DNA from: a virus
Virus record (IMG/VR): IMGVR_UViG_3300038560_000015
Coordinates: 1-60,397 of that record
Strand: one strand, 5' to 3'
Length of the DNA: 60,397 bases
The notes beneath the pieces were generated by a model. That model was not told the DNA's origin, did no database searches, and worked only from the letters and a program-made list of their open reading frames with translations. A program made the translations under genes and the position numbers. Shown piece by piece: positions 35,859 to 48,344 of this stretch (its first letter is position 1; each line of letters begins with the position of its first letter).

Positions 35859-37430
35859 TTAGCCGTTGCCGATGTTGTTGATCACCGCCATGGACGGCGG
35901 GAAATAATGCTGCAGAACTTCGTCGGCATAGACGCCGGATTCCCATTTGCGGGACTTTAACGGCCACTGGATCTGGTAGTAGTCCTGCCGCGTCCGGATC
36001 TGCATGACGTTGCCGACGCCCGACATCGGATAGGGCAGCCGCTTCGACGTCATCAGGATGGTGCCCGCGGGCATGTTCGGGTGGATGCGGATGCTGAGCA
36101 CCTGCCCTCCCGCCAGCGAGAACTTGTTCTTGTAGGTCGACACCATGATGCCGCCGCCGATGTCGTCCTTGTTGGTGGCAAAGACGAAGCGCTGTGCGGC
36201 CGTGGTGCCTCCGGCAAGGATCTTCTTGCCGATATTCTCGGCTTCCTGCGAGTTGCACCAGATGGTGTCGGGAGAGAGCCGGTAGTTGTCCCAGCGGTTC
36301 TTGAGCGCCGCATCGATCTCGACCACGCCGCCGGCATTGTCCGCGGTGAGCGGCGTACCGGTGCCGGCCGTACCGGTCGCCTGCGAGGCGACATAGGCAT
36401 TCGACCCGGATTTCATCGCTTGTGTCAGCAACCCGTCGAACGCCAGCGCATTCGTCGAGTTGTCGTTGGCGCCGAGCGATGCGGCCGTCTGCGCACCGGT
36501 CGCGTTCGCCGAGGCCACCAGCGAGTTGATGGTGGTGATGGCGCCGAGCACTTCGGAGCCGGCAACCCCCCAGAACCAGGCGTAGCCCATGGCGCCGGAG
36601 ACTGCCGTGACGGTCGCGGCCAGCGTGCCGTTGCCGCCCATGGCGATGGTGGCGTTGGCGCTCTGCTTGCCGGCGCCACCGCCGAACGTATCGGACGAGC
36701 CGTCGGCATTGACGCGGGTGATCTGGCCCTGAATACCGCCGGAGACGGTGCCGTTGAGCAGGCCGTCGAGCGACAGTGGAACGCAGATCACCGACACCGT
36801 GCCCGTCAGTGTACCGCCGGACGAGCTCGACAGCGACGGCTGCGAGGGTTGCCCCAACGCCACCGAGGTGTCGCCGCCGAGGATCATCGCCTCTTCGCCG
36901 AGCATGCAGGCTTCCAGCCCGACCTTGGCCGCGATGGCGCGGATGTCGTCGAAGCCCATGCCGGCATATTGCGCTTCGAAGTCGACATTGGTCTCGATGC
37001 CGATCCCCTTATACGCTGCCGAGTAGTCGGCATAGGTGATGGCCTGCACGCCGCCGCGATTGCCGACCGAGACGCCGACACGCTGACCGGAGGTGTTGAT
37101 CCCGGTCGCGGCGCGCCAGTTCGCCTGGATGCCGCCCTTGCCGGACATGCGCGGGATTTCGTTGCGGAGCGGCGTGAGCACCGGATAGAGAAACTTCGCC
37201 CCGGTCTCGAGATCGTAGTAATTGAGGCCGTCCGTGGCAGAGCCCGGTTGCGTGAACGTCGACTTGATGAACGACAGCGGGTCGCCGGGCAGCGGCGAAT
37301 TGAAGGCCTTCTCGACCGAGGCGATGAACGCATCGATCGCGACGTCCTCCTTCAGCGAAGGCACCCAGGTGCCCGCCGATTTCATCAGCAGGTCTTTCAC
37401 GCTGGGCGTGAGTTTGATCATTTGCGACAT
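35859..37430 (-). CDS. Major capsid protein
   Basis: 523 residues, an HK97-like capsid protein by position and pattern: a helical N-arm, NEIPRMSGKGG, ADYSAAYKGIGIETNVDFEA (E-loop region), and a C-terminal P/A domain with YRLSPDTIWCNSQEAENIGK, NVMQIRTRQDYYQIQWPLKS and YADEVLQHYFPPSMAVI. Residues about 190-330 are a Gly/Ser/Thr/Ala-rich insertion that is unusually large and may be an added surface domain. The gene follows an XkdF-like protease/scaffold gene. Confidence 0.85.
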   Translation of the reverse strand: MSQMIKLTPSVKDLLMKSAGTWVPSLKEDVAIDAFIASVEKAFNSPLPGDPLSFIKSTFTQPGSATDGLNYYDLETGAKFLYPVLTPLRNEIPRMSGKGGIQANWRAATGINTSGQRVGVSVGNRGGVQAITYADYSAAYKGIGIETNVDFEAQYAGMGFDDIRAIAAKVGLEACMLGEEAMILGGDTSVALGQPSQPSLSSSSGGTLTGTVSVICVPLSLDGLLNGTVSGGIQGQITRVNADGSSDTFGGGAGKQSANATIAMGGNGTLAATVTAVSGAMGYAWFWGVAGSEVLGAITTINSLVASANATGAQTAASLGANDNSTNALAFDGLLTQAMKSGSNAYVASQATGTAGTGTPLTADNAGGVVEIDAALKNRWDNYRLSPDTIWCNSQEAENIGKKILAGGTTAAQRFVFATNKDDIGGGIMVSTYKNKFSLAGGQVLSIRIHPNMPAGTILMTSKRLPYPMSGVGNVMQIRTRQDYYQIQWPLKSRKWESGVYADEVLQHYFPPSMAVINNIGNG

Positions 37431-37552: not shown

Positions 37553-39451
37553 TTAGCTGCGCTGCGCGACGCGCAACGCCGTCGAGGCGAGCCGGCTCAG
37601 GCCGTCCGTCTCCGACGAGGCCGCGCCGAGCTGATCGGCCACGGCGCCGAAGTCGTGTGACTTCTCGACCGTGCGCAAGGTCACCGACGTGGTGCCCATC
37701 GGCAGCGGCTGTGCGGCAATCTGCTTAACGACCTCGTGAATGGCCGAAAGCTCGGCAGCAAACGCCTTGCGATCGGCATCGCGTTCGGCGGTCAAGGCCT
37801 TGACCAGCTTCTCGGCATCCTCGTCGCCTTCATCGTCGGCGGCATCGCAACAATCCGGATCGAGCTCGACCAAAAGATCGTGCGCTTGCGCGATGCGGTC
37901 CTTGTCGGCCTTCGAATGCTTCGCGCCAGCCTTGATCAGCGCCGCCCCGACGACAGCCTTGACCAGGCCGGCGGTTTTGACGGATGCCGCCACTTCGTTC
38001 GCCGCCTCGGCGTCTTCCTCTTCCTTCATCGAGTTGAGGACGATGTCGAGCATTTCGGCTGCGATATCGCCGAGCTCGACCAGCGCTGCGCCAAAGCGAT
38101 CGCACAGGTCTTTCGGCAGATCGACGGAATTGCCGAAACTCCACGCCGGCAGCTCGGCATTGTCTTCCATGCGCGAGACGCCGTCGAGCAACAGCAACAG
38201 ATCGCTGATCGACCACAGATCGGCACCCTTCGAAAGCCCGCCGTCCCCGGCGACTTTCTTGGACTCCTTATCCTTGGTCGAACCGGCCCAGTCGGCCGGC
38301 AGCAGATCGGTCAGCTTCAATGCCTTGGCGCGCTTGGTGATGTGCCGCTTCGCCGCGGCCTTGTTCTTAGAACGGCCGTAGGCCTTGACCGCATTTTCCA
38401 GATCGTCCTTGTCTTTGATCGGAAACGATCCGTCCTTCATGGCCTCACCTTTGTCTGCCATGTCCTTACGCTCGTCGTCGCTATAGTCTTTCTTCGCAAC
38501 CGTGCCGTCCCCGGCGGTCGCGGGATCGACCTTTGCAACGACAGTCTCGCCCGGTTTTGCAGCCGCAGCGTCCCCGCCGTTCTGCTTTTCGAGCATGGTC
38601 TTGATGCCGGCCAGCGCTTCGAGCACGGGGCCGGCTTGTTTCCTCGCCGCCGTCTCGGCGTCGAGATCGACCAGCGCCTGGCGCAGATCGGCTTTTTTCT
38701 TGAAAGTCTTGCCGGGCAGCCGTTCGTTGACCCAGACCTGCTCGCCGACTTCGTTGTCGTTCGGCGTCTCGACCTTGGCGACCGGCGCGGCAACAGGCGC
38801 AACCGCGGTCACCGTGAGCGCCTTGGTCGCCGCCTCGATCTGCTCGGCCCACTTGCTTTCGTCGCCGGCGGCCTTCGCCAGTTCCTGCGCCTTGACGACG
38901 ATCTCGGCCGCGGTCGGCGCCGGCTTTTCCGGTTCGACCGCCTTGAACTTGCGCATCTCGACCGAGCCGTCGGCCTTGATGATCTCGAAGGTTGCCTCCT
39001 TGAGGCACGGAGAATCCACCAGCGAGACCTCGAAAGGCTCGGCGGTATATTTGGTCACCTCGCCATCCTTCCAGCGCTTGACGTATTTGCCGCCCTGCGA
39101 GAAGCCGGTATAAACGCCCTCTTCGACTTTCTTCCACTCGGCGTCGTCGACCACCTTGCCGCAGATTTCGATCTTCTTCGCCTCGTCGTTGAAGTTGATC
39201 GTGGTCAGCTTGCCGGCGGCGACATTGCCGTGCATGGCGCGCAGATTGCCGACGCTCTTGCCGTCGGTGTTCTTGGCAAACTCGCCGGACCATTTTTCGT
39301 AAAGCGGCTTGGTCGTGGCGTAATCGCACACCTCGCCGGCAACGTCCGGCAGCTCGGCTGTCGCCACGCCATAGACCAGGCGCTTGGCCGCATCGACCTT
39401 GGTGATCGGGATAAACAACTTGAGCGCGTCGTTGGTGGCCGTGGCAGTCAT
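37553..39451 (-). CDS. XkdF-like prohead protease fused to a scaffold-like region
   Basis: 632 residues from ATG 39451, chosen because GGAG lies 7 nt upstream; ATG 39568, overlapping the portal stop, would add 39 residues. Residues 1 to about 165 (GEVCDYATTKPLYEKW, NLRAMHGNVAAGKL, EWKKVEEGVYTGFSQGGKYV, PFEVSLVDSPC) are a putative serine protease of the XkdF type with candidate His and Ser in the MHGN and SLVDSPC strands. Residues 165-632 are acidic and helical like scaffolding proteins and include FPIKDKDDLENAVKAYGRSK. It should mature the prohead. Confidence 0.8.
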   Translation of the reverse strand: MTATATNDALKLFIPITKVDAAKRLVYGVATAELPDVAGEVCDYATTKPLYEKWSGEFAKNTDGKSVGNLRAMHGNVAAGKLTTINFNDEAKKIEICGKVVDDAEWKKVEEGVYTGFSQGGKYVKRWKDGEVTKYTAEPFEVSLVDSPCLKEATFEIIKADGSVEMRKFKAVEPEKPAPTAAEIVVKAQELAKAAGDESKWAEQIEAATKALTVTAVAPVAAPVAKVETPNDNEVGEQVWVNERLPGKTFKKKADLRQALVDLDAETAARKQAGPVLEALAGIKTMLEKQNGGDAAAAKPGETVVAKVDPATAGDGTVAKKDYSDDERKDMADKGEAMKDGSFPIKDKDDLENAVKAYGRSKNKAAAKRHITKRAKALKLTDLLPADWAGSTKDKESKKVAGDGGLSKGADLWSISDLLLLLDGVSRMEDNAELPAWSFGNSVDLPKDLCDRFGAALVELGDIAAEMLDIVLNSMKEEEDAEAANEVAASVKTAGLVKAVVGAALIKAGAKHSKADKDRIAQAHDLLVELDPDCCDAADDEGDEDAEKLVKALTAERDADRKAFAAELSAIHEVVKQIAAQPLPMGTTSVTLRTVEKSHDFGAVADQLGAASSETDGLSRLASTALRVAQRS

Positions 39452-39567
39452 CGTTGTCTCCGTTTCACCGGATGGGGATTTGCGCCGTTTACGCCGGCGC
39501 CTGGAACCTTCAAGGTCGTAGGATTGCAAGCCGTCAGTCGCACTCGTGGGCGCAGAGAACGTCGACA

Positions 39568-41079
39568 TCAGTCGACGACCTCTTCCTCGGCCGGCGTCGG
39601 CTCCTTGCCCTCGGTCTCGGTCGGCGCGGCGATTTCGTCGGACGCCGCCGGCAGCGCCGGCTTCGCACCGTTAGCGCCGAACGGCGACGCCCCGATATTG
39701 GCTTCGACCGGAACGTAGCCCTGCGCCGTATAGGCCATCGGCTTGTCGGCGGCCGGATCGTTGTAACGCTCCATGCCGATATTGTCGCGAAACTCATTGA
39801 GCGTGATGGCGCCGGCCTTGACGCGGCCTTCGAGCACGGTTTCCTGCTTGACCGGATCGGTGTCGTCCTCTTCGATCCACACCAGTTCGATGTCGGAGGA
39901 ATCCAGTTCGTTGGCGACGATGTCGTCGATCAGATCCTTGATCCACTCCTTGGTCGGCTCAAGACCCTCTTCTTCAGAGGTTGTCGAATGTTCCTTCGCC
40001 GTCGCACGGTTCATCATGCTGACGGCCCATTGCGGATTGACCGAAAAGGCGTAGCAAATGACCCGCGCCAGCCACTCGTCGAACACGCTTTTCTGATCCG
40101 GCTCCTTGGTCTGATGCACCTTCATGGCGACGTCGCCGGGCACGAACTTCGCCCGCCGCCGCTTGCCGAGATCACCTGAGAATTCCGTGTCCCAATATTC
40201 CTGGAATTGCTTGATCTGCTGCACCGTCCAGGTCGTCGGCACGCCGATCAAGGCGTCGGGGATCGAGCCTTCGGTGTAGTAATCGAGCTGCCACAACTGC
40301 CGGCGCAGCGCGATCTGCACGGTGATCAGCACCTGCTGCACCGGCGAATAACCATAGGCACGATGCGAGCGGATGTTACGCGGCCGATAGATGATATCGC
40401 GGGTCGAATAGTTGACGGCAGGAAGGCCTTTGAGGATTTGCTGATAGGCCGGCGGATAGACCATGCCTTCCGGACCGCGATACGGCAGCGGCGTGCGGCC
40501 CCAATCGTCGATCACGCGCTTGATGGTGCCGCCGTCGATCTGATGCAGCGCCAGCAACTGGCCGCCGCGGCTGCGCTGGCAATAAAGCGTCGCCGCGTCG
40601 ATGACGAACATGTCTTCGAGCAGCGAGCGTATCCAACCTTTCCAGCTCGTAAAGCCGTCCGGCCGGCGCAAGAAGCTGATGACCTTGTCGATCCGGCCCT
40701 GCATGTCCGCCGGGCGCTTGCTCATGCGGCGGAGCACCGGATCGCGCGGCTTGACGGTCCAGCGCAGGCGCTCGACCTGGTCCTTGCGTGTCTCGATGAC
40801 GAGCCGCAGCAGATCGCAGGCATCGGCGAACCAGCGCAGCTCGGAAAACCCGATCGGCTCGAAGGCCCGCGGCCGGGTCTGCAGGTTGTAGCCGGGTGCG
40901 TAATCGAAACGCCGGCCGGCGACCTCCGGTGGCGCCGTCGGCGCCATAGGATCGAGCGGCCCGAACCAGTCGGCACCAGTGCCGCGGGTGATGCCGGCCG
41001 AGGCGCCGTACTGCACATTGACCGTATAGGGATCGAGCGCCCAGGTCGGTCGCCCGGCGCCGCGCTGCGGATCGGCCAT
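39568..41079 (-). CDS. Portal protein
   Basis: 503 residues. Portal hallmarks: RWFADACDLLRLVIETRKDQ, helical stem, IIYRPRNIRSHRAYGYSP, and the wing/clip region EWLARVICYAFSVNP. The acidic tail (EGKEPTPAEEEVVD) is common in phage portals. It forms the dodecameric DNA channel. Followed after a TGATG overlap or a 117-nt gap by the protease gene. Confidence 0.88.
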   Translation of the reverse strand: MADPQRGAGRPTWALDPYTVNVQYGASAGITRGTGADWFGPLDPMAPTAPPEVAGRRFDYAPGYNLQTRPRAFEPIGFSELRWFADACDLLRLVIETRKDQVERLRWTVKPRDPVLRRMSKRPADMQGRIDKVISFLRRPDGFTSWKGWIRSLLEDMFVIDAATLYCQRSRGGQLLALHQIDGGTIKRVIDDWGRTPLPYRGPEGMVYPPAYQQILKGLPAVNYSTRDIIYRPRNIRSHRAYGYSPVQQVLITVQIALRRQLWQLDYYTEGSIPDALIGVPTTWTVQQIKQFQEYWDTEFSGDLGKRRRAKFVPGDVAMKVHQTKEPDQKSVFDEWLARVICYAFSVNPQWAVSMMNRATAKEHSTTSEEEGLEPTKEWIKDLIDDIVANELDSSDIELVWIEEDDTDPVKQETVLEGRVKAGAITLNEFRDNIGMERYNDPAADKPMAYTAQGYVPVEANIGASPFGANGAKPALPAASDEIAAPTETEGKEPTPAEEEVVD

Positions 41080-41081
41080 GC

Positions 41082-42494
41082 TCAGCCTCGAATGACTACA
41101 GCGCTATCGGCCATCGCCGCGATGCGTTGCTTGATGGCCGCGAGCGGCGCGCGCCAGTTTTCGGGCGCAACCTGATCGAAAAGCTCGACCGACGGATACC
41201 AGGGTGCCGCACCCTTGCACCAGCGCCAGCACGGATTGATCGGATTGAGCATGAAACAAGGCTTGCCGAGTGCGCCGGCCACATGGACCGCCGCGGTATC
41301 GACCGCGACGACAAGATCGAGCTTTTGCACCACTGCTGCCGTGTCGGCGAAGTCACTGATGCCGGCCGTCGCGTCACCGACGAGATATTCGGCACCGCTG
41401 TCAATCCGCTCTTGTGCATAGGGTCCGATCTGCAGCGACCACAACCGGACGCCGGGAATGGTGCCGAGATCGAGCAGGTCGCCGACCGGGACCGACCGCT
41501 GTCGGCTCCGCTCGTGACCGGGCGAAGCCGCCCATACCAGACCGACGGCGAGCTTCGCGCCGCCATCACGGAAGGACCGATCGCAGTGCACTTGCGCCGT
41601 CAGGTATGGCGCCGAAGGTATTGTTTCATAACTTGGCTTGCACAGCGCCACGGCGGAGATCAGCGGGCAGTGAAAGTGTGCATCACGCGCGGCGCATACG
41701 ATGTCGCCCGGGCTGTCGATATCGATGATCAGATCGATCTTGCAGTGGCCGCGCAGCAATCGATGGAGCGCCTTCGGCGCAGCCAACACTATGCGAGCCG
41801 GTCCCGTCGCCTGTTCTCCGGCAAAGCGCCTGATGATCTCGGGGATGAAGCGAACGAACTGCAGCGTGTCGCCGAAGCCCTGCTCATGGTGCAGCAGCAG
41901 CGTCTTGCCGCCGAACTCTTCGCCGTTCCATTTCGGCAGACCGCAGTCCCAGATCGGGTTCTTGATCAGCATCCCCGCCCAGCGCACCTCGAGCAGATCA
42001 AGACCGAGCGCCAGATCACCGGACTTGAGCACGGCATGGGCCAAGTCTGACAGGCAGTTGACGGCATCCGGCTTGATCGCCAGCGCCCGCCTGAATGATG
42101 CTATCGCGTGGCTTGATCGCCCAGTCGCATAGTACAGCAAACCGAGATTGTGATGCGGCCCGTAATGGTCCGGCAGCAGATCCCGCGCCCGCGTCAGTGC
42201 CGCTTCCGCCTCGGCAAAGCGCTGAGCCCGCCACAGCGTATTGCCGAGGTTGTCCCAGACGTGACCGTTGTCCGGCTCGCTCGCCAGCGCGCGGCGAGAC
42301 AGCGCGATCGCGGCATCGTAACGGCCGGCACCGCAGACCATCACGGCGAGGTTATGATAGGCCTGCGTATAGTCGACGTCGCTGTCGAGCGCGGCCTGCA
42401 GCAACGCAAAGGCGTTGCCGCTGTCGCCGGCCGACATGCGTTCGGCGCCGAGCCGCAGAAGATCTGCGGCTCGGCTATTCAGTGTGCCGTGCAC
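41082..42494 (-). CDS. TPR-containing glycosyltransferase-like protein in the head operon
   Basis: 470 residues. Residues 1 to about 170 are at least four TPR units (for example AYHNLAVMVCGAGRYDAAIA, HVWDNLGNTLWRAQRFAEAE, HHNLGLLYYATGRSSHAIA). Residues about 185-465 form a GT-B domain like GT9/heptosyltransferases and TPR-GTs: LLLHHEQGFGDTLQFVRFIP at the start and LDLVVAVDTAAVHVAGALGK plus APWYPSVELF at the end, the nucleotide-sugar and catalytic regions. Bacterial homologues act in flagellin or protein glycosylation. It lies between a putative decoration protein and the portal gene with 3-nt gaps, so it should be made with the virion proteins. Confidence 0.8.
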   Translation of the reverse strand: MHGTLNSRAADLLRLGAERMSAGDSGNAFALLQAALDSDVDYTQAYHNLAVMVCGAGRYDAAIALSRRALASEPDNGHVWDNLGNTLWRAQRFAEAEAALTRARDLLPDHYGPHHNLGLLYYATGRSSHAIASFRRALAIKPDAVNCLSDLAHAVLKSGDLALGLDLLEVRWAGMLIKNPIWDCGLPKWNGEEFGGKTLLLHHEQGFGDTLQFVRFIPEIIRRFAGEQATGPARIVLAAPKALHRLLRGHCKIDLIIDIDSPGDIVCAARDAHFHCPLISAVALCKPSYETIPSAPYLTAQVHCDRSFRDGGAKLAVGLVWAASPGHERSRQRSVPVGDLLDLGTIPGVRLWSLQIGPYAQERIDSGAEYLVGDATAGISDFADTAAVVQKLDLVVAVDTAAVHVAGALGKPCFMLNPINPCWRWCKGAAPWYPSVELFDQVAPENWRAPLAAIKQRIAAMADSAVVIRG

Positions 42495-42497
42495 TGC

Positions 42498-43220
42498 TTA
42501 GCCCGGGAAGGTGTAGGTATACCCGAAGCTGAGCTGATGCGTGCCGTCTGGTGCCTGTGTCGGCGCGATCAAAGCGCCCGCTGCGGTCACCGTGCCGATC
42601 GTCTCGTCGGCCGGCACCATCAGACCGAGCGTGCCGGCGGTCGGCGTCAGCTTGGTCTCCTTGATCACCGCAAAGTCGACGAATCCCGGATCGACCGGAA
42701 CCGCGATGGTGCCGTTGGTGCCGACTTGCACGCCGGGCGACGAACCGCCGGAGACGCCGGAAACGACGGCACTGGTCAGATGCACCACGCCCTTCGATGT
42801 CTGAAGCGTCGCCGTTCCCGACGAAGCGATGCCGCCGAAGTTGAGCGTGTCGGTCTGGGTCGTTGAATCGTTCGCCGTATAGGTCAGCGCGAGCTGGCCC
42901 GCGACCAGCGACGCTGCGCCGGCATTGACCACCGCCTGCAACTGCCGCGGCACATCGGGCTGTGCCGCGATCGACAGCGTGCCGTTCGAAAATCCGGTCG
43001 ACGCGACCGTGACCGCAGCCGCAGCGATCGCCGGCGCACCCGGCGTGCTGTAGACCCGCTGCGCCGTGACGGCCCACTGGAAGCCGTCATTCATCAGCGC
43101 GTCGACGTCGAGAAAGCTGACGCCAGAAATCGTGCCATCGGAGCCGATGGTATAGTTGGTGCCGCTGCGGCCCATGACGACGCCGCCTACGCCAGCCGGT
43201 GCGATCAGTTTGATGCTCAT
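42498..43220 (-). CDS. Putative head decoration protein
   Basis: 240 residues, Gly/Ala/Ser/Thr-rich and beta-like. The N-terminal about 45 residues (IKLIAPAGVGGVVMGRSG, TIGSDGTISGVSFLD) are related to the C-terminal 54 residues of the large terminase. A central part (LSIAAQPDVPRQLQAVVNAG) and C-terminal strand follow. Position after TerL and before the TPR-glycosyltransferase suggests a surface protein and possible glycosylation target (inference). Confidence 0.55.
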   Translation of the reverse strand: MSIKLIAPAGVGGVVMGRSGTNYTIGSDGTISGVSFLDVDALMNDGFQWAVTAQRVYSTPGAPAIAAAAVTVASTGFSNGTLSIAAQPDVPRQLQAVVNAGAASLVAGQLALTYTANDSTTQTDTLNFGGIASSGTATLQTSKGVVHLTSAVVSGVSGGSSPGVQVGTNGTIAVPVDPGFVDFAVIKETKLTPTAGTLGLMVPADETIGTVTAAGALIAPTQAPDGTHQLSFGYTYTFPG

Positions 43221-43235: not shown

Positions 43236-45146
43236 TTAGGTCGTGGCGAGCGCCACGGATGAAACGCGTTCAAACCCGATGTCGATAAGCGAAGCACTGT
43301 CCTGTTCGTCGACTTCAATGGTGCCATCGGCGCCGACGATGTACTGGCGCCCGGACATGCTGGACACATTGGAAATACCCGCCGGGGCGCGCAGGCAGAT
43401 TTCCTTTTTCGATCCCGCCGCGACGGTCGCGACAGCCGGCGACTTGGCGGCTTCCGACGCCGCACGGTAGAATTCCAAGATACCGCGGGCGCCTTTCGGC
43501 TCCGGATTGCGGATCATCACGTCGGCGGCGTCCCACAGCGCGAACACCGGATCGACCTTGGCATCGCCGGCGCTCTGCTTGGTCGCCGCTATCCCGGAGC
43601 GGCCGGCTTCGATCTTCACGTTGCCGACGCACCAATTCATCAGCGCGCTGGGCGAATGCAGGAGGGAGCCGTTCTCGAGCTTGCGTTCCGTCGTCTTGAT
43701 AGCACGCATCAAGCGCCAGCCCTGACCGATGCCGACGATCTGCTCGCTTGCCTCGTTGACGCCGATCTTGTCGAGCTCGTCGACGAGCTCCCCGTAGGGG
43801 CCCTCGTTGTCGATCGCGACGGCGGCGAGCAAGCCCGCGTCGTTCACCTTGGCGATCAGATCGACGACGGCGAGGATGTCCTGGTCGGCGCTGTCGATGA
43901 AAGTGAGGTCGCCGAGCTTTTCGAAGTCCTCGAGCAGCGAGGCGATGGCCTTGCGCCGTTCCAGCACCTTGCGATGGCACCAGGCGTGTGACCACAACAG
44001 CCAGCGCTTGGTTTCCCTTTCACGCCCGAGAGCCGCAAAGCCGAACAGATCGTCGAGCCCACCGCCATCGAGACCGATCACGATCGCCTCGCAGCGCGCG
44101 ATCAGGTCATCAAGCCTCAGAACCTTTTCGTCTTCGGACGTTGACCAGAACTCGGCGCCGGCCCACGATTCCGACTTGAGCCCGATGCCGATCTCGATGT
44201 TGAGATGCTGCGAGGCCCAGATCCGCTTCGCCTGCTCGTTCTTGGACTTCTCGGTTTCCCAGTCCGGGATCAGGCTCGTTAGGTGCATCGACCGGCCGAG
44301 GTTCGGCATCACCATCGGCCAGTTGACAGGATTGCTCCACTTGTCCTGGTCCTTGGCGATGTCGGCCGGGAACTCGTAGATGATCGGCAGCATGGACCGC
44401 ACCTCGCGATCCTTGAACCGGCCATCGCGGATCCCGCGCGCCATCGCGAGCTCGTCCTTCATCACGCCGGCGGGAATGTCGTCGCTCGCCGTCGTGGTGA
44501 TGAGAAGCAATCCCTCCTGCGTCTTTTCAAGGCCGCCGCGGATTTGCCGCAGCACCTTGGCCGCGTAGGGCAATCGGCCCAGCAAGTGCAGCTCGTCGAC
44601 CAGCGCCAGAAATAGGATCGAGCCGGTCAGGATATTGACGTCGAAGGTCTTGACCCGAAGCTCGGAGCCGGTGACCAGGTCCTCGATCGTTTTGACGTGG
44701 TCGCGGGTGCGAAACCGCCGCTTCAGGTCGACCGAGGCCTCGATCATGCCGGTCGCCTTGTCATAGGCGTTATCGGCGATGGCTTGTGTCGGCCCGACGA
44801 ACAGCGCCTCGGCGCGCGGCCGTCGGTTCATCAGCATGCCGACCAGTAGCAGGCCGGCAGAGTAGGTCGTTTTCGACTGCCCCTTCGGCAGCATCGCGAA
44901 GATGTCGCGGATGTAGCGGACCCGGGCGACCGGGTCCCACGATCCGAAGGCGACGCGGACGATGTCGCGAAACCACTGCCCGGCGGCGTCGCGCATCCTT
45001 GGCAGGCCGGGCTGATCGGGAAGCTGCAGCTCGTCGAAGAACTGCAGCCCGATGTCCGCCTCGCTCTCGATCAGCGGCAGCTTCGGTATGAGCGACCGGC
45101 CGGCCCGGATGCGGGCCTCCCAATCGACGCAGGAGGTGTCCCACAT
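43236..45146 (-). CDS. terL: Terminase large subunit with an extra C-terminal module
   Basis: 636 residues. ATPase: Walker A-like PKGQSKTT (87-94) and Walker B ALVDELHLL (Asp184, Glu185). Nuclease: VIGLDGGGLDD and, further on, TFIDSADQDI with metal-binding Asp residues. Residues 583-636 (ICLRAPAGISNVSSMSGRQ, IVGADGTIEVDEQ) are not part of the usual terminase but resemble the N-terminus of the next gene product. It cuts concatemers and pumps DNA into proheads. Confidence 0.9.
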   Translation of the reverse strand: MWDTSCVDWEARIRAGRSLIPKLPLIESEADIGLQFFDELQLPDQPGLPRMRDAAGQWFRDIVRVAFGSWDPVARVRYIRDIFAMLPKGQSKTTYSAGLLLVGMLMNRRPRAEALFVGPTQAIADNAYDKATGMIEASVDLKRRFRTRDHVKTIEDLVTGSELRVKTFDVNILTGSILFLALVDELHLLGRLPYAAKVLRQIRGGLEKTQEGLLLITTTASDDIPAGVMKDELAMARGIRDGRFKDREVRSMLPIIYEFPADIAKDQDKWSNPVNWPMVMPNLGRSMHLTSLIPDWETEKSKNEQAKRIWASQHLNIEIGIGLKSESWAGAEFWSTSEDEKVLRLDDLIARCEAIVIGLDGGGLDDLFGFAALGRERETKRWLLWSHAWCHRKVLERRKAIASLLEDFEKLGDLTFIDSADQDILAVVDLIAKVNDAGLLAAVAIDNEGPYGELVDELDKIGVNEASEQIVGIGQGWRLMRAIKTTERKLENGSLLHSPSALMNWCVGNVKIEAGRSGIAATKQSAGDAKVDPVFALWDAADVMIRNPEPKGARGILEFYRAASEAAKSPAVATVAAGSKKEICLRAPAGISNVSSMSGRQYIVGADGTIEVDEQDSASLIDIGFERVSSVALATT

Positions 45147-46510: not shown

Positions 46511-47161
46511 TTAAGCGAGGCCCAACGCTCGTCGCAGTGCCTGATTCCTTCCGTCGTCGTCAAGCGTCTCGATCCCAGTCCAGTAGGACTTGGTGTAGAC
46601 GGCGACGATCTCATTCTCGGTAAAGCGTTCTTCGCGCAAGCGTTCTTCCTGAGTTTTGTTGCTATTGCGCCAGCGCTTTTTCTTCTTGGGATAACCGATC
46701 AGTTCGAGGGTGATGCTAAGTGGGCGATGCTTGTTTTCGACGGCCTTGATTCGGGCAATGTCGGCATCGCTGATGATCGCGGGGTTGTCTTCGATCAGCA
46801 CAAAGCGCAAAACGCCGGGACAGGCGAGCACGCGGCCATAATGCCGGTTGATGCCCCACAAGAATACGAAAATATATCCTCGAAACATCGGATGCAGCGA
46901 TTTGACACGACGACCGCGGCGCATTTCGTCGGTTTCGACCTCCGGGACGTAAATGCCGAAGCGGCGAGCGCTCAGATGGGCCGCGGCGATCTTCTGATGG
47001 CCCGGTGTTGTCTCGATTACATACCACGCCGGAGTGACGCCAGCGACGATCTCCGCATCGAGCTTGTTGCGTCCCTCATAATCGACGATCTGTCCATTCG
47101 AAGTTGCCGCCCGGACCATCGCCATATTCCCGCCCGTCGTGGTCTCGCTCGCCATCAGCAT
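46511..47161 (-). CDS. NusG/RfaH-like transcription (anti)termination factor
   Basis: 216 residues from ATG 47161 (GAGGGGAAC before it; the upstream ATG 47200 lies within the preceding gene). The NGN domain is clear: WYVIETTPGHQKIAAAHLSA, then GIYVPEVETDEMRRGRR and PMFRGYIFVFL, ending with GVLRFVLIEDNPAIISDADI. NGN binds RNA polymerase beta' clamp. No clear KOW domain follows; the C-terminal 70 residues are basic and helical. Standing just before two terminators and the terminase operon, it is a candidate late-gene antiterminator. Confidence 0.85.
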   Translation of the reverse strand: MLMASETTTGGNMAMVRAATSNGQIVDYEGRNKLDAEIVAGVTPAWYVIETTPGHQKIAAAHLSARRFGIYVPEVETDEMRRGRRVKSLHPMFRGYIFVFLWGINRHYGRVLACPGVLRFVLIEDNPAIISDADIARIKAVENKHRPLSITLELIGYPKKKKRWRNSNKTQEERLREERFTENEIVAVYTKSYWTGIETLDDDGRNQALRRALGLA

Positions 47162-47174
47162 GTTCCCCTCGCTT

Positions 47175-48344
47175 TCACTTGAAATCCGCAAGTTCTTCAT
47201 CGCTGCAGCCGATATCGGGTGCAGTTATCGAAATCGTTCCGTCTTTGCGCGGCGGCCATGGCCACGGCGCGCGGGAGCCTTCGGTCAACCGACGCCAGAT
47301 TTCGATTTCCAGATGTTCCGCGAGCAAGCTATTCCAGGCGCCAGCCTGTTGCCGCGTCAGCGCAACCCACTCGCGATCAGGCTTTGCCGATGCCAGCGCC
47401 AGCAATTGCGGCGTGATCGGCTTTCGATACCAGATGCCGCCGTCAACGGCGTGTTTCGAGCCGAAAATCAGGTTTTCCTTGCCGGCGATCTTGTGCAGCG
47501 TGGCGACGGCGGTCCATTCACGGCTGCCACGCGGAAGCGGCGTCGGAACAGGGTCGCACAACCCGTCGAAAATGCGATCACGAAGGAACTTGTGGGCGTC
47601 CTTGGGACGGCGGGCAAGCTTCTCGCATTCCGGGCCATAGCGACCGGCAGCAACGACGGCCTTTTCCTGATCGATCTCGGAAAGCGCCTTGAACCACGGC
47701 CAAGCGGCTTTCCAGTCGTTCACCTTGATCGGATATTTGCGTTTGAAGCGTTCGAAGCGCTCGTAGGCCGATTGCTCTTTCTCGCCCACCTGCAGCGGCT
47801 CGGCTTGGGAAGGGCTTTGGGTAGGGTTTAGGTTCCTAACAGGTTCCTCTATAGGCTGCCGCTGTAGAGCGGTAGCGTCGACCGCTGGTGGCGGCAGCGT
47901 AGAGCCGGAAACGCTGCCGCCAGTTGCGGTAGCGTCAGGGCCGGAATCATCCGTTGGCGCGCGGCTTTCTTCACTATCAACGCTGCCGCCAGTTGCGGTA
48001 GCGTTTTCAGCCTCGCCGAGGATGTCGCAGCCACTTGGGAGGTGTGGCAAAATCTCGTCAACCGGCGCGCCGAACAGCGGCGACGGCTTCAAAATCAGGA
48101 AGTCATGCGTGCGCCGGCCGAACCGCTTGAGCTTCACCCGCCGCACGAGGCCGGCTTCGACCAGGTCGCTGAGATAGCGCTGCACGCTGTCAGACGATTG
48201 CTCGCTTTCGTCGGCGATCAGATCCTGCTTCGGATAGGCGAACCACAGCGGCCCGGCATAGTTGGCGATCGACCACAAGACGCACTTCGCCCGCGGCGAG
48301 CCCGTCTTTTGCTCGATCGCCCAAGTCATGGCCTGGAAGCTCAT
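47175..48344 (-). CDS. Helix-turn-helix replication-type protein
   Basis: 389 residues. The N-terminal 90 residues are a winged helix of the replication-initiator/DnaD-like type: RAKCVLWSIANYAGPLWFAY, SDSVQRYLSDLVEAGLVRRV. A Pro/Ser/Thr-rich linker (residues about 105-185) leads to a helical C-terminal domain (WPWFKALSEIDQEKAVVAAG). This layout is that of lambda O-like proteins. The origin is often inside such linkers; here the DNA of the linker (47880-48010) has repeats encoding TATGGSV twice. Role as origin binder is inference. Confidence 0.65.
   Translation of the reverse strand: MSFQAMTWAIEQKTGSPRAKCVLWSIANYAGPLWFAYPKQDLIADESEQSSDSVQRYLSDLVEAGLVRRVKLKRFGRRTHDFLILKPSPLFGAPVDEILPHLPSGCDILGEAENATATGGSVDSEESRAPTDDSGPDATATGGSVSGSTLPPPAVDATALQRQPIEEPVRNLNPTQSPSQAEPLQVGEKEQSAYERFERFKRKYPIKVNDWKAAWPWFKALSEIDQEKAVVAAGRYGPECEKLARRPKDAHKFLRDRIFDGLCDPVPTPLPRGSREWTAVATLHKIAGKENLIFGSKHAVDGGIWYRKPITPQLLALASAKPDREWVALTRQQAGAWNSLLAEHLEIEIWRRLTEGSRAPWPWPPRKDGTISITAPDIGCSDEELADFK

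Follow-up and report, generated by a model that had tools for sequence, protein, structure and literature searches.

The window, by which we mean the whole 60,397-nucleotide stretch of DNA that was analysed, is a metagenomic-type virus record (IMG/VR) known from sequence alone. Its head genes lie on the minus strand in the order terminase, DEC, TPR-glycosyltransferase (TPR-GT), portal and protease (Table 1). The putative major capsid gene follows, in a position downstream of the protease that is kept in relatives. A preliminary description had placed a TPR plus GT9-like protein between a putative surface protein and the portal, with 3-nt spacing. The coordinates were right, and the spacing is correct on the upstream side, where the DEC stop codon TAA is followed by GCA and then by the GTG of TPR-GT. 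On the downstream side the gap is 2 nt, with the portal ATG at 41079 following the TPR-GT stop. The GTG start is backed by the starts of the relatives (MHGT/MHGN).

Table 1. Head genes and protein domains at the locus, in window coordinates
Feature	Position	Strand	Basis
TPR-glycosyltransferase (TPR-GT), 470 aa, GTG start	41082..42494	(-)	intact homologues in five other phages
TPR domain, N-terminal, ~residues 9-170, proposed acceptor-binding part	41985..42470	(-)	Pfam TPR families; AF2 confident for TPR helices
GT9-like domain, C-terminal, ~residues 172-462	41109..41981	(-)	PF01075 22.7 bits for the domain alone (cut-off 22); alignment A4
DEC (P0002), 240-aa all-beta protein, putative head surface/decoration protein, candidate acceptor	42498..43220	(-)	AF2 beta-sandwich, pLDDT 79; homologues between TerL and portal
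Terminase large subunit	43236..45146	(-)	phrog_9, 6e-93
Portal protein	39568..41079	(-)	PF04860 9e-15; phrog_2662 8e-74
Head maturation protease region	37553..39568	(-)	PF14550 18 bits, below cut-off; phrog_80 1e-7
Probable major capsid protein, alternative acceptor	35859..37430	(-)	by position; phrog_13692 (function unknown) 2e-128

Three further features of the window are recorded here. Upstream of the head genes, positions 46511-47200 encode a NusG-family protein (PF02357 7e-17) that is likely a phage antiterminator. A near-perfect palindrome with the core TGCGCAAATTTGCGCA is present in five copies (5449, 18856, 35806, 50827 and 59210) and is perhaps an operator. One GGCGGC-rich repeat occupies both contig ends (1-235 and 60197-60397), which may point to a circular or circularly permuted genome that was broken within the repeat.

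The TPR part of TPR-GT is strongly recognised (Pfam TPR_2 5.5e-16), and TPR domains usually bind proteins. The match of the whole protein to the GT9 family (PF01075) is marginal but meets the curated cut-off (22.0 bits, cut-off 22), and its best stretch corresponds to positions 172-205 of 247, the C-terminal part of the profile only. In alignment A4, eight of nine GT domains from phages and bacteria match the same profile. Bacterial TPR-containing glycosyltransferase family proteins (Azospirillum, Rhodovastum, Paraburkholderia) have the same domain order and are 31-37% identical to TPR-GT over most of its length. The motifs EQGFGDTL, VGLVWA and DTAAVHVAGALGKP are common to the window protein and the bacterial homologues in this alignment. 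The EQG-GD, VWA and DTA...HxAGALGxP motifs are intact in the window protein; in one phage homologue (L011), C-S replaces D-T of the conserved DTA motif. An AF2 model computed from a three-sequence alignment was good for the TPRs and too poor for use in the GT part (pLDDT mostly <50), and we infer a GT-B fold for this part from homology instead. A PDB profile search reached a GT9 chain (3tov) at E 0.038 only. Searched alone against viral contigs, P0001 and L005 retrieved nothing beyond themselves, the patterns being too strict, and P0001 gave one match among genome contigs, confined to the TPR part.

We considered whether the protein could be a TPR O-GlcNAc transferase. No GT41 Pfam family was found in TPR-GT up to E 0.1, and the matches to OGT in the PDB were restricted to the TPR part. 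With no GT41 match after the TPRs, this identity was ruled out, and TPR-GT is placed outside the GT41 family. The architecture is instead that of FlmG, with a TPR N-terminus and a glycosyltransferase C-terminus in one protein. The window was also searched for a DUF5672 protein, an epimerase and a second GT9 protein, and none was found, leaving TPR-GT as its sole GT9-family enzyme. For this reason we assume that a host nucleotide-sugar is used and consider one sugar or a short glycan likely.

DEC consists of 21% Ser plus Thr and 13% Gly. Its Ser/Thr richness had been read as the sign of an acceptor, and we dropped this argument since homologues from phages without the GT are equally rich (20-26% in GT-less DECs vs 19-27% in GT-linked DECs). 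Structure comparison of the DEC model gave matches to unspecific beta-sandwiches (VIA Z ≤8.0), among them viral surface proteins, and the cement protein of phage KHP40 (7dou, Z 6.3) falls within this unspecific range. Assignment to a named decoration-protein fold was rejected, as none of Foldseek's top chains was decisive. The DEC gene is located in the head module, within the TerL-portal interval, in the window and in several relatives. Several GT-less relatives also have their DEC homologue between terminase and portal, and the DEC of L099 lies 22 nt from the portal. From this position, DEC is probably a virion component. A module of ~50 residues is found both at the terminase C-terminus (43236-43400) and at the DEC N-terminus (43060-43220), and recurs in other TerL-portal interval proteins of relatives. 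It is also found in a small protein directly upstream of the L130 TPR-GT (E 1e-4), with a weak match in L131 (E 0.04).

The preliminary description had raised the occurrence of the same gene pair in related phages, and this was borne out in six phages, where the pair is co-inherited against the portal phylogeny. TPR-GT lies immediately downstream of a DEC homologue in the window and in five further records found by viral-contig scans (L005, L011, L115, L117 and L134), all with intact GT genes. An intact pair in five other phage records indicates that the arrangement in the window is not due to chance. Four of the six (the window, L005, L011 and L134) have the pair ahead of the portal and two (L115 and L117) have it behind, and the two genes are kept together despite these different positions. 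By profile search, the GT was detected in these five only out of 20 records with DEC homologues; the search in the other 15, several of which are fragments, gave no GT (0/15). The DEC of L116 is close to the GT-linked group, yet there is no GT within 33.9 kb. Just upstream of the portal, in the slot that TPR-GT occupies here, two relatives carry Imm52-like ORFs (L058:7932-8675, 3.5e-15; L059:6546-7307, 1.5e-15).

We compared the history of the pair with that of the portal. In the DEC tree, the six GT-linked DECs fall on one side of a branch with weak support (46/10), and their clustering was matched by none of 500 label shuffles. The portal data reject the six GT-linked phages as a clade (cost of 138 log-likelihood units, p-AU 2.1e-11), in a tree to be read with caution given the long branches of L115, L116, L134 and L117. 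Pairwise identities of DEC and GT among the six phages are correlated (r 0.93, or 0.88 given portal identity; Mantel 8/720). The portal of L006 is 73% identical to that of the window and its DEC 36% only, and L006 has no GT. Taken together, the clustering of GT-linked DECs, the rejection of the portal clade and the tracked divergences suggest that the pair moves between head modules as a unit. The DEC type and the GT seem to travel together, as expected of an enzyme and its acceptor, although physical adjacency alone could explain this co-inheritance, at least partly.

Additional sugar enzymes are encoded beside the pair in relatives. The L005 homologue is a 1068-aa fusion with the order TPR-GT9-DUF5672-GT9. 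In L115, the interval between portal and protease encodes an epimerase/dehydratase (PF16363 6e-46), a radical-SAM/SPASM enzyme and a DUF5672-type protein resembling the middle of the L005 fusion. By sequence inspection only, a small GT9-like protein and an FkbM-like methyltransferase are also present there, and DEC and TPR-GT come after these genes. In L134, the genes between TPR-GT and portal comprise those of an epimerase (PF01370 3e-44) and a DUF5672 protein, and a DUF5672 protein is found downstream in L117. This gene content is consistent with the synthesis and extension of a glycan next to its acceptor. An ORF of L072 (6077-6742) that appeared GT2-like by eye had no Pfam support and was discarded as evidence.

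We read the gene neighbourhoods of the bacterial homologues in 14 annotated plasmid records; two more records were without annotation. Flagellar or chemotaxis genes adjoin the homologues in L092 (flagellin/flaF/flbT), L093 (hook genes) and L111, and the homologues next to flagellar genes are 34-37% identical to the phage TPR-GT. Giant calcium-binding proteins adjoin the homologues in L110, L210 and L213, and type I secretion genes are also present in the first and last of these. This arrangement on Azospirillum plasmids suggests glycosylation of large secreted proteins. The L114 homologue neighbours a DUF4214 protein, L094 and L209 contain GT/methyltransferase/FkbM clusters and L212 has an FkbM gene nearby. 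The neighbourhoods in L091, L112, L113 and L208 were uninformative. No LPS-core cluster surrounds the homologues in any of the 14 annotated plasmid neighbourhoods. The possibility had been raised that homologues are always found with lipopolysaccharide genes; flagellar, secreted-protein and head-gene neighbours are at odds with it.

Relatives of the GT domain were detected in at least 561 viral contigs, and the best matches form 38 clusters at 60% identity. The preliminary description regarded a TPR-GT9-like enzyme in this position as undescribed. This stands insofar as the open literature searched describes no TPR-GT within the head operon of a phage, an absence not thereby proven, but such enzymes are not rare in phages. 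Three relatives are found among head genes, in the orders terminase, portal, TPR-GT, scaffold and major head protein (L149); portal, major head/protease, TPR-GT and methyltransferase-like genes (L140); and major head protein, TPR-GT and methyltransferase (L158). The podophage MW202512 encodes a distant homologue (25%) just past the major capsid protein region, near an annotated FkbM methyltransferase. The neighbours tallied for the phage relatives comprise methyltransferases, sialyltransferase-like proteins, terminase and virion proteins, and also exonuclease and homing endonucleases, and many of the relatives have no recognisable head gene adjoining. Head placement is therefore recurrent, not universal.

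We propose, with a probability of roughly 0.58, that TPR-GT is a dedicated, FlmG-like virion-protein glycosyltransferase that uses a host nucleotide-sugar and most likely modifies DEC. Here we infer the catalytic activity, the acceptor and the sugar, as well as the presence of DEC in the virion and a benefit to the phage, for which concealment from antibodies or attachment to host polysaccharide had been put forward. The soluble enzyme would be made together with the head proteins. Its TPR superhelix would capture a virion protein soon after synthesis, DEC from the neighbouring gene being the likeliest, and the GT9-like domain would move the sugar onto this acceptor before or during head assembly, resulting in sugar-decorated particles. 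In relatives, the second GT9, DUF5672, epimerase and FkbM-like methyltransferase proteins may build or lengthen a glycan of greater complexity. A broader reading, tentative and with the odds somewhat against it, is that unrelated phages share a mobile, modular system of virion glycosylation. A TPR-GT and its cognate surface protein would pass as a set from one head module to another and pick up sugar-building enzymes as optional additions, and particle glycans would be exchanged in the way that tail fibres are.

The preliminary description had named a head or tail protein as the likely substrate. The head-operon location and the DEC-GT pairing speak for this, although the Ser/Thr argument does not, and the pairing makes a virion-protein target, most likely DEC, more credible. 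We consider it unlikely that the target is another virion protein (major capsid, portal or tail) and DEC a mere genetic neighbour. The enzymes of L149, L140 and L158 lie next to portal or major capsid genes with no DEC recognised, and mycobacteriophage virion glycans are reported on capsid and tail-tube subunits (PMC12619734, PMC11256854). However, the GT tracks the type and divergence of DEC and not the divergence of the portal, and it comes after DEC in both gene orders. More doubtful still is a cargo gene that just happened to insert among the head genes and changes flagellin or polysaccharide on the host surface during infection or in lysogeny, superinfection exclusion being one conceivable purpose. 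Gaps of 2-3 nt amid structural genes point to late expression with virion proteins, and cargo leaves unexplained the linkage to one DEC type and the repeated arrival in other head operons, even though this phage has an integrase, flagellar genes lie near bacterial homologues and the TerL-portal slot is variable in relatives, at times holding unrelated ORFs such as the Imm52-like ones.

Two other readings concern the chemistry itself. It is improbable that TPR-GT is catalytically dead and now helps DEC to assemble, as a TPR chaperone. Such a loss could fit the marginal GT9 profile match and the homologue with the altered DTA motif, but the window protein keeps the EQG-GD, VWA and DTA...HxAGALGxP motifs of its bacterial homologues, and further sugar enzymes adjoin TPR-GT in relatives. 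We give the least credence, very little, to glycosylation of phage DNA bases, given that TPRs usually bind protein, that FlmG, the nearest analogue, modifies a protein, and that the linkage is to a structural protein and not to replication or base-modification genes. DNA-glycosylating transferases are nevertheless known in phages (PMC12619734).

Glycosylated particle proteins have been documented for only a few phages. An enzyme encoded among the head genes and inherited together with one specific structural protein provides an enzyme and a candidate acceptor that can be put to the test. The occurrence of related TPR-GTs in three further head operons suggests that sugar-coated virions may be more widespread than assumed. 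If the proposal is true, these phages would provide compact TPR-guided protein glycosyltransferases for biochemistry.

We compared TPR-GT to known systems, the closest being FlmG, the flagellin O-glycosyltransferase of Caulobacter crescentus. In FlmG, flagellin is bound by the TPR half, and glycosylation, which takes place in the cytoplasm, requires the TPR and the GT half alike (PMC7591256). FlmG is a single cytoplasmic protein with TPRs in its N-terminal half and a GT-B-type C-terminal half (PMC7591256). TPR-GT likewise has TPRs followed by a glycosyltransferase domain, for which a GT-B fold is likely, and some plasmid-borne bacterial homologues of the phage TPR-GT sit in flagellar gene clusters. 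FlmG is a cellular enzyme of 596 residues that transfers pseudaminic acid onto flagellins, whereas the phage TPR-GT has 470 aa and is tied to a structural gene. The bacterial TPR-GTs have genes for flagella, chemotaxis or large secreted proteins as neighbours, whereas the phage TPR-GT lies beside head genes. Phage-encoded virion glycosylation itself is already reported for the mycobacteriophages Che8, Rita and Maravista (Freeman et al. 2023, cited in PMC11256854 and PMC12619734). There, phage-encoded glycosyltransferases go with sugar on virion proteins, as is proposed here. Compared by description, the GT genes of Maravista are near the 3' genome end, whereas TPR-GT lies inside the head operon and is co-inherited with a structural protein. 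What is unusual here is the cassette of TPR-GT and its candidate acceptor within a head module.
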